A stretch of DNA of 21,848 nt, taken from the IMG/VR virus record IMGVR_UViG_3300031715_000026, positions 1 through 21,848 of that record. One strand, given 5' to 3'. Below, piece by piece: positions 7,124 through 21,619 of this stretch; position 1 is the first letter of the stretch; every line of letters starts with the position of its first letter. Source of the stretch: a virus. The notes under the pieces were generated by a model. It was not told where the DNA came from. It searched no databases and worked only from the letters and a program-made list of their open reading frames with translations. The position numbers were made by a program, and so were the translations under genes.

Positions 7124-7198
7124 TGGTTGCTCGCCATGGATTTGAACCACGCCCTCTAGCTTATGAAACTAGAATGATCACCAGATCACTTGCGTGCG
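7124..7198 (-). tRNA. tRNA-Met-like gene, anticodon CAU
   Basis: On the minus strand this shows a T-arm CGTGG-TTCAAAT-CCATG, an anticodon arm CTAGT-TTCATAA-GCTAG with anticodon CAT, and a D-arm GTGA-TCTGGTGA-TCAT with the conserved GG. A 3' acceptor strand GCGAGCA is followed by A and encoded CCA. The weak point is the acceptor: the 5' strand CGCACGC pairs at only 5 of 7 positions, and positions 8-9 are AA rather than TA. CAU could mean initiator or elongator Met, or Ile if lysidine-modified. It may be functional or starting to decay. Confidence 0.62.
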
Positions 7199-11996: not shown

Positions 11997-12383
11997 TTAT
12001 TTCCCCGTTATATAGTGCAGAGCACTAAGAAAGTTTTCTTCGTTTTCTTTGAATAAACCTAATCCACGATTGCAGTTACCGCACAAGAGCCCACGAACTC
12101 GTTTCGTCGCATGATTATGATCAATATCTAGCGGTTTAAAGGGCTTTTCATGACAAATTGCACATAAACCTTTTTGTTGCTCAACCATTAAGACATATTG
12201 AGCTTGGGTAATTCCGTAGTGTTTGCGTAAATGAGACTCGCGATTATAGTTGTCAAATTTTGCTTCATACTTCTTTTGGTTCTTAGTTTGCCTACTTTTG
12301 TAGTATTTTTTATACCGTAAGCGATTTTGTTCCCGTTGATATGCAGCCATCAGTACTTCACGGTCCATCAATTTAGCTGGCAT
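11997..12383 (-). CDS. Endonuclease VII-like HNH homing endonuclease (copy 4)
   Basis: A 128-residue nuclease with a basic, Tyr/Lys/Arg-rich arm (QREQNRLRYKKYYKSRQTKNQKK, about 16-40), then C74-x2-C77, DHNH (88-91; the third position is Asn rather than Asp) and RGLLC-x2-CN (97-105). Its ATG shares a base with the stop codon of the terminase gene (TGATG), and its stop touches the portal ATG (TAAATG). It therefore fits exactly between two essential genes. The terminase's last codons (GGAGATGAC) give it a ribosome site. It is AT-rich relative to its neighbours. Confidence 0.9.
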   Translation of the reverse strand: MPAKLMDREVLMAAYQREQNRLRYKKYYKSRQTKNQKKYEAKFDNYNRESHLRKHYGITQAQYVLMVEQQKGLCAICHEKPFKPLDIDHNHATKRVRGLLCGNCNRGLGLFKENEENFLSALHYITGK

Positions 12384-16669: not shown

Positions 16670-16906
16670 ATGAATAAATGCGTGTATTGTGGCGAGGAGT
16701 TTACAAACTGGGTAGAATACCAGGAACACGAATCACTTAGCCACTGGAACAGAGAGATTCCGTCGCAGAGCCCGTTTGCGGAAGCGGTGGAGACCATACC
16801 GGCTTTCCAGGTCGTCGCTAGCGGGCGGCTAGACCTGGCAAGACGCACTTATCCAGGTCCTATGGACGCAATTCCGTCTATGGATTCAAGTTTGTGGTTA
16901 AATTAG
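16670..16906 (+). CDS. 78-residue protein with a C2H2-like zinc finger
   Basis: I chose the ATG at 16670 (after GAGAAAGG) rather than the GTG at 16637, because the finger begins directly with it: MNKCVYCGEEFTNWVEYQEH, then E-S-L-S-H. The Cys-x2-Cys and His spacing is that of a C2H2 finger (Cys at 4 and 7, His near 20 and 25), unusual but known in phage proteins. The rest is a polar, Pro-rich tail. It may bind DNA or a partner protein. Next to other Cys-pair proteins it supports a zinc-rich operon. Confidence 0.65.
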   Translation: MNKCVYCGEEFTNWVEYQEHESLSHWNREIPSQSPFAEAVETIPAFQVVASGRLDLARRTYPGPMDAIPSMDSSLWLN

Positions 16907-17021: not shown

Positions 17022-17055
17022 GGGATGTAGGACTATCAACTAAGGAGGATAGACA

Positions 17056-18540
17056 ATGCCTAGGACACGAAGCGTAGACCCGTACCTCGATCACATAGAC
17101 TCGTTAAACACGGTTAATTCTGTTGGAGTGCCACGGCCTAGGCCCTCCATAAGTGTGCTTAGCCCTAACCATCCGGCTAACCAAGGTCAACGAAATGACA
17201 GCCGTAACTCCGTTACATATCAAGTCAGAGTGCCCGCATACAAGTTCTCTTTAGGATGGGAGCTAGAGGCTAACCGCTGCGCGACAAGAGTGCCAGTCGG
17301 AGTAAACCAGATAAAGGACCGTAGTGTAAACGGGGATAGTGCGGAGTACGTGGTTTTGCCGTCCGTCACGAAAGCACCTACATTTGTGCTAGGGCTGTTA
17401 AAGGATTTAGTACACGCCCCAAAGCTCAATACTGACAAGTCATGTGGGTTTCATATCCATGTAGGTATGCAAGGCGCAAAGATAGCGACGCTCAAACAGT
17501 GGGCCATTGCCACGGAGTCATTGGCCCTAGACATCGAAGACCTAGCGTTTAAGGCCGTGCCGAACGCGCGACATGCTAACCAGTATTGCAGGCGCATTGT
17601 CCCCCTTCAAGCGGGCACGCGATTTGTCCAGTTCAAGTCCAATAACGAGAGACGTTACCACTGGCTAAACACTGTCGAGATTTTCCGCCCTGGCGGTATC
17701 CGCACAATAGAGATACGCTTGCTAGGCAATACGCATAGATGGAAATACCTATTAGCATGGACGGCCTTCAGCTTGTCCCTTGCGCGTGAAGGCTGGAAAT
17801 TGGCGCATAAGCCTTTTGACAGCCGAAAAGAGTCAATCAGCCAACTATCAGACTTGCTAAAAGCTATTGCGTCTGACATCAGGCCGCTAGAAAAAAGATA
17901 TGAGCCTGTACCTACATGGCTGTATAGCCAGCTCAAAAACCTAGGTATTGAGTTTTCAGCCTTCGATAGGCCGCTAAAGACGCTAACGAAAATGGAAAGC
18001 AGAATCAAGGGCTGTTATGTCGTGCCGTATTCCGACGATCAAAGAGACGTGCCTAACGTCAATGAGGATGAGGACTACTGCGCGTGCGGCTGCGGGACTG
18101 AGGGACGCTGTGACTCGCAAATGCACGATGACGGGGACTGTGAGTCTAACTCCTGCTATAATTGCCATGAAAACGGGGACTGTAACTCTAGGTGTTGCGA
18201 GAATTGCCGAGAGTCGGCCCATAGCGACGGTGAACTATGTAGCTGGAATGATTGCCGACGCTGTGACCAGATACGCGCTGAGCAAGAGGGAGAGGAAGAG
18301 GCCGCGAGTGTTCCGGTTATATTCAGTGACCTAGAAATGAATAGACGCGCTGGCCTGACGTGCGACACACACGAAACAGCCCTAAGTGCCGAACGTGATC
18401 ATAGAATCCGGCAAGTTCTAAACAGTCCGGACCTTTCAATAGACGATGTATTGCAAATGCAACGTGCAGCAGAAAGCCGTTTAACAGAGGATGAAAATAC
18501 AATGAGTCTTGACCGCTCATCATTTCGAGGGGGGCACTAA
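17056..18540 (+). CDS. COOH-NH2 ligase-type amidoligase with Cys-rich tail
   Basis: A 494-residue protein whose family (amidoligase, glutamine-synthetase/gamma-glutamyl-cysteine-ligase fold) uses ATP to join a carboxyl to an amine through an amide bond. Seen motifs: GWELEA (67-72, metal-binding Glu), NGDSAEYV (92-99), CGFHIHV (130-136, family C-G-x-H-x-H-V), RYHWLN (200-205) and TIEIRLLGNT (217-226), i.e. the main family motifs in order. Residues ~1-60 are a Pro/Ser/Asn-rich arm. Residues 342-403 hold 14 Cys (CACGCG ... CCENC), probably zinc sites, which the core enzyme does not need. GGAGGA precedes ATG, and the amidotransferase gene follows by 3 bases. The substrate is unknown; peptide, cell-wall or protein-tag modification are options. 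Confidence 0.85.
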   Translation: MPRTRSVDPYLDHIDSLNTVNSVGVPRPRPSISVLSPNHPANQGQRNDSRNSVTYQVRVPAYKFSLGWELEANRCATRVPVGVNQIKDRSVNGDSAEYVVLPSVTKAPTFVLGLLKDLVHAPKLNTDKSCGFHIHVGMQGAKIATLKQWAIATESLALDIEDLAFKAVPNARHANQYCRRIVPLQAGTRFVQFKSNNERRYHWLNTVEIFRPGGIRTIEIRLLGNTHRWKYLLAWTAFSLSLAREGWKLAHKPFDSRKESISQLSDLLKAIASDIRPLEKRYEPVPTWLYSQLKNLGIEFSAFDRPLKTLTKMESRIKGCYVVPYSDDQRDVPNVNEDEDYCACGCGTEGRCDSQMHDDGDCESNSCYNCHENGDCNSRCCENCRESAHSDGELCSWNDCRRCDQIRAEQEGEEEAASVPVIFSDLEMNRRAGLTCDTHETALSAERDHRIRQVLNSPDLSIDDVLQMQRAAESRLTEDENTMSLDRSSFRGGH

Positions 18541-18543
18541 CCT

Positions 18544-19503
18544 ATGTGTGGACTGGTGGCAGGAATCGGCAAGCTAAACAGTAACCGAATTAAAGCTTTG
18601 CTCTCAATGAATGAGGACAGAGGAACCGACAGCGTTGGCATTGGATACATTATGGACCATAAAATCCGAGTGGCAAAGGTGGCCGAACGCCCATGTGTAG
18701 CGGTTAATCTTACGATTGCTAAGGAAATTACAGAAGCAGCGGTATCAGGTCTTTTTATCGGACACACGCGACAAGCGACGAAAGGAGAAGTATGCACGGA
18801 AAATGCCCACCCATTCTTGATGGACGGCATAGCGTTCGCGCATAATGGGATTATTATAAATTATGCCGACTTCGGGGACTACAAGGTAGACAGTCAGTCC
18901 CTTATCCACGGTATCAAGGCAAAAGACTTTAGCAAGTATAAGGGCGGCATTGCGCTTATATGGATTGAGGACGGGAAGCTAAAGGCCTATCGTTGTGGCA
19001 ATCCCCTCTATCGGGGGAAGCACAACGGGGTCACATACCTTGCCAGCGAGGATGACCAGCTAGAGGCGATCGGATGCAATCATATCAAGTCGTTAGCTGA
19101 GGGAATGATTTATACTTTCCTCAGTCCGACTCAACTTATGACGGAACGCGTCAAGAAAAATGAAAAAGGTTTTGCCTACAAGGGCATGTCATGGGAAGAC
19201 TACAACTATACGGGACACAAGACCCTAGCCCTCAGCACGCCTAGCAAGGATATAACGGCCTACTGTGATCACGGTATACACTACTCGCAAAAGTGCTTTA
19301 CGTGTGACGAGTTTCCGGCCCTGAGGGAGGACTTCCACACATGGAAGGACGAGAAGAAAAAGCAGGAGTACGTTGACTTCTGTGACATGTGTGGAAAGAA
19401 AGCAGAGTTAACCGAGGGCTATTGCTTAGAATGCATTACATACCTTGATGATAGCACGAGCAAAGACTTACCGCCTATGCCGTCACGCCGAGAGGTGCAA
19501 TAA
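18544..19503 (+). CDS. Class II glutamine amidotransferase with C-terminal zinc motifs
   Basis: A 319-residue Ntn-type glutaminase that should release ammonia from glutamine. Cys2 is exposed as nucleophile after Met removal. The family motifs are RGTDSVG (26-32), GHTRQATKG (73-81), NAHPF (87-91), HNG (100-102) and DSQSL (116-120). The catalytic domain ends near ~200. Beyond it are CDHG and C251-x2-C254, then C280-x2-C283 and C294-x2-C297, a zinc-ribbon-like tail not usual in this family. There is no synthetase domain on this chain; the adjacent amidoligase is the obvious partner. The ribosome site is the G6 run 9 bases upstream, in the end of the amidoligase gene. Protein and gene look intact. 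Confidence 0.88.
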   Translation: MCGLVAGIGKLNSNRIKALLSMNEDRGTDSVGIGYIMDHKIRVAKVAERPCVAVNLTIAKEITEAAVSGLFIGHTRQATKGEVCTENAHPFLMDGIAFAHNGIIINYADFGDYKVDSQSLIHGIKAKDFSKYKGGIALIWIEDGKLKAYRCGNPLYRGKHNGVTYLASEDDQLEAIGCNHIKSLAEGMIYTFLSPTQLMTERVKKNEKGFAYKGMSWEDYNYTGHKTLALSTPSKDITAYCDHGIHYSQKCFTCDEFPALREDFHTWKDEKKKQEYVDFCDMCGKKAELTEGYCLECITYLDDSTSKDLPPMPSRREVQ

Positions 19504-19628
19504 TGTGTCCGCCTGACGAGCATCGCTGGCAATGGTTCCGAGAACGGGAAGGCGTGATAGAGTACGTTTGCATGAACGCGAACTGTGGGGAAGTTATGAC
19601 GCAATATATAGACACGCAAGGCGGCTAA
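19503..19628 (+). CDS. 41-residue Cys-pair mini-protein ending in Gly-Gly
   Basis: Its ATG shares a base with the amidotransferase stop (TAATG), so it is coupled to it. The product starts MCPPDEHRWQWFREREG, has a C-x4-C (CMNANC) site and ends DTQGG. A small protein with a C-terminal Gly-Gly straight after an amidoligase pair recalls tag proteins, but the GGCGG bases could equally be a ribosome site for the next frame. Function unknown. Confidence 0.5.
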   Translation: MCPPDEHRWQWFREREGVIEYVCMNANCGEVMTQYIDTQGG

Positions 19629-20928: not shown

Positions 20929-21246
20929 ATGAAAAGATTACTGCCGTTCTTGTTCGCGGCGTATTTCACGATCGGACAGAACCACAACTTCCAGCTCGGG
21001 AACGGGGAGAGCTACGCCTTCTAGATCGACCAGCCCCTCGTGGGCTCGTTGAGCCTGAACCCGTCCGTGTCGTTGGACAACAACACGGGATTCAAGGACA
21101 AGGCCGCCAACGTCGACCTTAGCTGGGAGGCCACGAAGGTCCTGACGTTCACGATGGGCGCGGGGTATGACAAGTACACGTTGACCGGTGTCGCGCCAAC
21201 AGAGGACGGCAACGTCCACACTTCCATCAAGATAAAAGTGTGGTAA
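20929..21246 (+). pseudogene. Secreted beta-strand protein interrupted by an in-frame amber codon
   Basis: GAGGAGG precedes ATG. The frame reads a signal-peptide-like MKRLLPFLFAAYFTIGQ, then reaches TAG at 21022-21024 after 31 codons. It continues open in the same frame for 73 more codons to TAA, with alternating strands GSLSLNPSVSLD, NVDLSWEA, LTFTMGAGYDKYTL and a final HTSIKIKVW. Alternating hydrophobic strands and a terminal aromatic residue are like the end of an outer-membrane beta barrel. Without readthrough only a 31-residue peptide is made. It may be nonsense-mutated, or read through. TAG ends neighbouring genes too, so genome-wide recoding is unlikely. Confidence 0.6.
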
Positions 21247-21256
21247 AGGAGGCCTA

Positions 21257-21619
21257 ATGATAACCAAATTGATCTTGCTGGGTACGTTACAAGTGACAAG
21301 TTACTGCCCCAGGCCGCAGGAGACGAAGCCGGAGTGTACGTCCAGGAACCATTGCCGCACCTCGATAGACGATGGGGTCACGCGCTTCGGCGTGGCGGTT
21401 TCGCAGGACATGCTCAAGGACGGTCGCGTCCACTACGGCGACCCGATATACATCGACGGGTACGGCTGGAAGATTGTGAACGATTGCATGAATGCGCGGT
21501 ACAGGAACAGCGTGGACATAATGGTCATGAGCCACGACGAAGAAAAGTATGTCGGTGTACGGCATTTGTATGTTTACACTATCACTCCACCAAAAGCTGT
21601 GCCAGGAATGGAAAGATAA
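21257..21619 (+). CDS. 3D-domain (double-psi beta-barrel) protein, probable cell-wall role
   Basis: A 120-residue protein with GGAGG before ATG. It matches the 3D domain of MltA/RlpA-like and Bacillus YocH/YabE-type proteins: VTSYCP near 13-18, DDGVTRFGVAVSQDML (38-53), GDPIYIDGYG (61-70, Asp62), VNDCMNARYRNSVDIMV (74-90, Asp76 and Asp87). The three Asp residues give the family its name. Members bind or cut peptidoglycan, so a lysis or entry role is likely. Only a short hydrophobic N-terminus (KLILLG) is present and no clear signal peptide, which fits a short-domain phage protein. Two extra Cys (27, 33) could form a disulfide. Confidence 0.78.
   Translation: MITKLILLGTLQVTSYCPRPQETKPECTSRNHCRTSIDDGVTRFGVAVSQDMLKDGRVHYGDPIYIDGYGWKIVNDCMNARYRNSVDIMVMSHDEEKYVGVRHLYVYTITPPKAVPGMER

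Follow-up and report, generated by a model that had tools for sequence, protein, structure and literature searches.

A phage amidoligase and class II glutamine amidotransferase gene pair with putative metal-binding C-terminal tails

Overview

The window analysed here, a 21,848-base fragment of an uncultivated phage, contains two adjacent genes whose products, proteins A and B, probably form a glutamine-fed amidation system, with zinc-binding tails as add-on recruitment or docking modules that take no part in catalysis. We put the probability of this reading at about 0.6. The two-enzyme system is real and conserved, belongs to a known kind and has minimal gene content; its novelty lies in the putative four-site Cys/His array at the end of protein A.

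Gene layout and genomic context

Protein A (494 residues; positions 17056 to 18540 of the window, plus strand) is an apparent amidoligase of family PF12224 with its catalytic domain at about residues 60 to 300, and protein B (319 residues; 18544 to 19503, plus strand) an apparent class II (Ntn) glutamine amidotransferase (GATase). A ribosome-binding site, AAGGAGGA, can be read directly from the sequence 5' of A (17041 to 17055, plus strand). The first-pass annotation had described two intact enzymes 3 bases apart; coordinates and reading frames were verified on the plus strand, and 3 bases indeed separate the stop codon of A from the ATG of B. A small third open reading frame of 41 residues (19503 to 19628, plus strand), containing the CxxC-like motif CMNANC, overlaps the stop codon of B and is a possible member of the same operon. 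Counterparts are located directly 3' of B in the related contigs G002 (E-value 8 × 10−6) and G003 (identified by eye), and none was seen in G004 and G006.

The minus strand of the window carries SU10-type portal, terminase and capsid genes, and the plus strand carries short genes. All four related contigs (G002, G003, G004 and G006) contain the A/B pair. The capsid (73–87%), portal and terminase genes are common to the window and G002, G003 and G006, while small neighbouring genes are common to the window and G002, G003 and G004.

Just 5' of A, a small open reading frame (16671 to 16906, plus strand) encodes a C2H2-like finger (MNKCVYCGEEF...; PF00096, E-value 0.003, below the cut-off), to which no match was found within the related contigs. 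On the other side of the pair, a secreted-type open reading frame (20929 to 21247, plus strand; MKRLLPFLFAAYF...) contains one in-frame TAG at about 21022 to 21024 and is then open to 21247. It has no homologue in the four related contigs; decay, error and recoding are candidate readings. The next gene (21257 to 21619, plus strand) encodes a protein of 120 residues, weakly similar to cell-wall peptidases of phages (phrog_2307 and phrog_20590) in their C-terminal parts, and is conserved near the A/B pair in G003, G004 and a further contig, L137. On the minus strand, a tRNA-Met (CAT) gene (7124 to 7198) is present within the head-gene module, between the capsid and putative scaffold genes, and an Endonuclease VII-like gene (12000 to 12383; phrog_2914, E-value 4 × 10−31) separates the portal gene from the large terminase gene. 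A PADLOC run returned no defence-system match.

Catalytic domains

Protein A matches Amidoligase_2 (PF12224) with an E-value of 2 × 10−5 and a score of 25.1 bits, the curated cut-off being 22, and also matches the phage amidoligase families phrog_2443 and phrog_7469. In alignments with 36–44 relatives, Glu69, Glu71, Asp88, Ser90, Glu97, His133, His135, Glu219 and Arg221 are invariant, and Gly67 is also listed as invariant; the acidic, His and Arg residues of the active site of the glutamine synthetase (GS)-like fold are all present, as expected for a member of PF12224. The AlphaFold2 model of the core is confident and can be aligned with YbdK-type carboxylate-amine ligases and glutamine synthetases (Z-scores of about 10–11, with 10.9 for the YbdK/GS match), which resemble the catalytic domain of A in fold, share about 8–17% identity with it and have no tail. 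Glutamate-cysteine ligases are found among the fold matches too.

Protein B matches GATase_4 (PF13230, E-value 1 × 10−7) and class II GATase families. The nucleophile Cys2 is conserved in the alignments, as are Arg26, Gly27, Arg76, His89-Pro90, His100-Asn101-Gly102 and Asp116. The core is modelled by AlphaFold2 as an Ntn-hydrolase fold, with pLDDT values mostly between 85 and 97 for residues 1–200, and matches the GlmS glutaminase domain (1xff) with an E-value of 6 × 10−14. Both by profile and by fold, the best matches are GlmS glutaminase and PurF, and EgtC is also among the fold matches. B shares the Ntn fold and the catalytic residues with these three proteins; unlike them, it is a stand-alone protein with a putative ribbon tail and without a synthase domain.

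Judged by sequence and predicted structure, the assignments hold: A belongs to the PF12224 amidoligases and has a GS/YbdK-type fold, and B is a class II (Ntn) GATase. Families, catalytic residues and fold matches also lend support to the earlier proposal of a glutamine-fed, amide-forming pair, in which the donation of ammonia itself is presumed.

The Cys/His tail of protein A

The tail of A (residues 342–403; 18079 to 18264, plus strand) contains 14 Cys residues, at positions 342, 344, 346, 352, 362, 367, 370, 376, 380, 381, 384, 395, 400 and 403. Its Cys and His residues are conserved in five phages: in the window, L093, L094, L096 and L137, 16 of the 17 (13 Cys and three His) are invariant, Cys380 being the exception, versus 8 of the 45 other residues (Fisher p = 4 × 10−8, a value that ignores phylogeny). 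Between L093 and L094, pN in the tail is lower than pS (0.234 versus 0.676). The tail is laid out as one CxCxCx5C element and three units of around 14 residues (14–15) with the pattern H-x4/5-C-x4/5-C-x2-C.

From the 16 invariant ligands four zinc sites are predicted, each probably small and tetrahedral. The putative ligand sets are Cys342, Cys344, Cys346 and Cys352; His357, Cys362, Cys367 and Cys370; His371, Cys376, Cys381 and Cys384; and His389, Cys395, Cys400 and Cys403, with overlapping CCHC groupings also possible. The first two H-x4-C-x4-C-x2-C units are encoded by a 42-nucleotide tandem direct repeat (18124 to 18207, plus strand; two copies, 74% identical), so duplication probably accounts for the growth of the array. 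Many of the tail residues are Asp or Glu, and the tail is not basic. When modelled with AlphaFold2, without metal and with few close relatives, residues 322–375 are of low confidence (pLDDT below 50 at 347–375), and the last unit is helical, with a pLDDT of around 80, and does not resemble a clear metal site.

The A tails of the five phages do not match any of the Pfam zinc families (LIM, zinc ribbon, zinc knuckle), even at an E-value of 10, and comparison of the tail profile with PDB sequences gave no match. In the viral collection, the CxCGCG..GRC pattern is confined to the A subfamily, and the exact two-unit pattern (H4C4C2C, twice) retrieved, besides the subfamily (L112), just low-complexity or off-frame matches. 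The putative four-site array on A, lacking a match in the families searched, appears to be new.

The putative C-terminal ribbon of protein B

Three CxxC pairs are present in the C-terminal region of B (251/254, 280/283 and 294/297). Both the three pairs between residues 251 and 297 and the 14 Cys residues of A had been counted correctly in the first-pass annotation. Only the pairs 280/283 and 294/297 are conserved; Cys251 and Cys254 occur in none of the relatives compared with the window. The conserved pairs make up a Cys4 motif, C-x2-C-x10-C-x2-C (residues 280–297; 19381 to 19434, plus strand), which is retained in L093, L094, L096 and L137 and whose sequence is consistent with a single zinc ribbon. 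The tail gives a sub-threshold match to DZR (E-value 0.017), and in the AlphaFold2 model residues 276–303 form short strands and a helix (pLDDT about 66). Inspection by eye revealed comparable C-terminal Cys4 motifs in GATases from four Zobellviridae phages, PA11 and RIO-1 among them, as well as in those of contigs L045 and L048; therefore, the Cys4 tail of B is a recurring feature of the family.

The description of the tails as zinc-type is supported by the ligand conservation in A and by the ribbon-like CxxC-x10-CxxC of B, as far as sequence can tell; it finds no backing from a Pfam zinc family in the case of A.

Relatives and loss of the tails

Scans of IMG/VR placed L093, L094 (to which L095 is near-identical), L096, L097 and L137 in the A/B subfamily, together with two fragments, L128 and L129, and also L001, a contig of 4.9 kb that covers only the first 56 residues. 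L013 is a more distant relative (40% in A). As in the window, B is located immediately 3' of A in L093, L094, L096, L137 and L013, wherever the contig extends far enough. In L097, the tail of A keeps the later units and lacks the CxCxCx5C element as well as one ligand from the unit that follows it, and in the syntenic L013 both the array of A and the tail of B are absent. The tails therefore appear accessory to catalysis, in line with the initial suggestion that neither core reaction needs them. L013 also encodes a tyrosine integrase (PF00589; 15437 to 16612 of that contig, minus strand), so the A/B lineage may include temperate phages.

A tblastn search with A as query, covering 50,697 phage records, found nothing at an E-value of 10−5 and, at E-values up to 10, the amidoligase domain alone. 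Genome contigs scanned with the B alignment contained GATases on contigs named Microbacteriaceae and similar actinobacteria, and the A/B pair was not found in that scan.

Comparison with other phage amidoligase cassettes

Amidoligase and GATase genes adjoin each other in many other phage contigs. That the two families are linked in phages had been stated from the outset, and the pair does occur in many phages (LUZ24-like, Zobellviridae and OM43), mostly inside larger cassettes; such a larger amidoligase cassette is listed for a LUZ24-like phage (PMC3890496). The Zobellviridae and LUZ24-like cassettes (PA11 gp004-gp008, RIO-1 gp9-14 and UFV-P2 ORF21-29; PMC3890496) have PF12224 and class II GATase genes together on the early strand, as here, and the Zobellviridae GATases have a putative C-terminal Cys4 ribbon like that of B. 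Unlike the window, these cassettes also contain a COOH.NH2 ligase, a small partner protein, an ATP-grasp protein and often a gamma-glutamylcyclotransferase (GGCT), in a different gene order, and the Zobellviridae amidoligases examined lack the Cys/His tail of A. In the window, G002, G003, G004 and G006, no ATP-grasp, COOH.NH2 ligase, small partner, GGCT, class I GAT or GNAT gene was detected at an E-value below 1, using small, local HMMs from Zobellviridae and other phages, which diverged partners could escape, and contigs that may be incomplete. The A/B lineage has a minimal, two-gene version of the cassette; just two genes were found.

In the OM43 phages MEP401 and MEP402, PF12224 and GATase are auxiliary genes, widespread in the lineage, according to the passages of PMC10580990 used here; these also attribute to Iyer and colleagues (2009) the idea that genes of this kind in phiEco32 modify the cell wall and prevent superinfection. 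The OM43 phages belong to another lineage than the window, and the same passages make no mention of gene adjacency or tails.

In the uncultivated phages L014, L015, L016, L020, L026, L029, L038, L045 and L048, the GATase gene adjoins that of an amidoligase with a Cys-rich extension, which is N-terminal, whereas that of A is C-terminal. The L048 extension scores as a LIM domain (27 bits, cut-off 22.9), and that of L045 scores just under the cut-off. In both L045 (7044 to 11694) and L048 (6831 to 11238), the GATase gene is flanked by two different Cys-rich amidoligase genes, one on each side; the L045 GATase has 15 Cys residues in its C-terminal part. Homology between the A tail and the extension of the L014 group was not supported by profile comparison (probability 0.5%). 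Since the L014-type extension is unlike the A tail, metal-type modules seem to have been added to the enzyme pair more than once, judging from a limited sample. The tails had also been called unusual: this is upheld for A, the array of which is unmatched, and not for B, as its Cys4 motif recurs in Zobellviridae; other amidoligases, too, have N-terminal Cys-rich or LIM extensions.

Proposed mechanism and alternatives

In the general chemistry of the amidoligase and GATase families, ammonia from glutamine is ligated to an ATP-activated carboxylate, and this is the simplest reading of the pair. The tailed phage would express A and B from its non-structural strand. The N-terminal Cys of B, exposed once the Met is removed, would hydrolyse glutamine to yield ammonia; A, with its GS fold, would activate a carboxylate with ATP and join the ammonia to it, leaving the carboxylate capped as an amide. 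The tail of A, as four zinc sites, and that of B, as one Cys4 ribbon, would act as recruitment or docking modules. The first-pass annotation had suggested that the tails could secure the complex or bind a substrate. We infer ammonia as the nitrogen donor, zinc as the metal and recruitment as the role of the tails.

GATase-like Ntn enzymes are able to act as gamma-glutamyl hydrolases instead of ammonia donors. A could accordingly link the side-chain carboxylate of glutamate to an amine and an EgtC-like B later remove the gamma-glutamyl group, which would be a tag or protecting group, with no transfer of ammonia. EgtC is indeed among the fold matches of B, glutamate-cysteine ligases and YbdK are among those of A, and GGCT genes adjoin amidoligases in other phages; however, B is best matched by GlmS glutaminase and PurF in both profile and fold searches, the HMM search detected no GGCT gene in the A/B lineage (window, G002, G003, G004 and G006), and we consider this chemistry unlikely here.

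Other alternatives concern the tail of A. The low model confidence at residues 322–375 and the slight variation in length and spacing among relatives would fit a segment that has no defined zinc sites and is instead disordered, disulfide-bonded or redox/metal-buffering. Such a segment is improbable, given that the invariant positions are ligand-like Cys and His residues, His included, that the regular 14-residue units and the exact four-by-four ligand count fit tetrahedral metal sites, and that A is presumably a cytoplasmic protein, in which stable disulfides are improbable. Also improbable is a substrate among phage or host nucleic acids or nucleotide-linked metabolites, for which the tail would serve as a zinc-knuckle-like array that binds nucleic acid: Cys381, Cys384, His389 and Cys395 form a C-x2-C-x4-H-x5-C motif, close to a CCHC knuckle with one residue extra, but the tail does not match the Pfam zinc knuckle, is rich in Asp and Glu rather than basic, and no base-modification genes were noticed next to the pair.

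For the glutamine-fed amidation system, a carboxylate on host peptidoglycan or on an envelope peptide is, by analogy, the most likely candidate target, with somewhat less than an even chance, on the basis of the published suggestion and the weak peptidase-tail similarity of the neighbouring gene at 21257 to 21619. Otherwise, a host or phage protein would be the target. A more specific joint reading, which we regard as doubtful, sees in the A tail a previously undescribed tandem module with four zinc sites, its three His-containing units derived from tandem duplication, which with the putative ribbon of B would form a docking scaffold that couples the glutaminase to the amidoligase or recruits the target, phages having repeatedly added unrelated zinc modules.

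Phage amidoligase and GATase genes have long been noted, and the relevant parts of PMC3890496 and PMC10580990 contain no demonstrated substrate. The lineage described here offers a minimal pair whose relatives differ in the number of putative metal sites, from four through fewer to none. With such a natural series of tail states, experiments can address directly what the tails do and what the product is.
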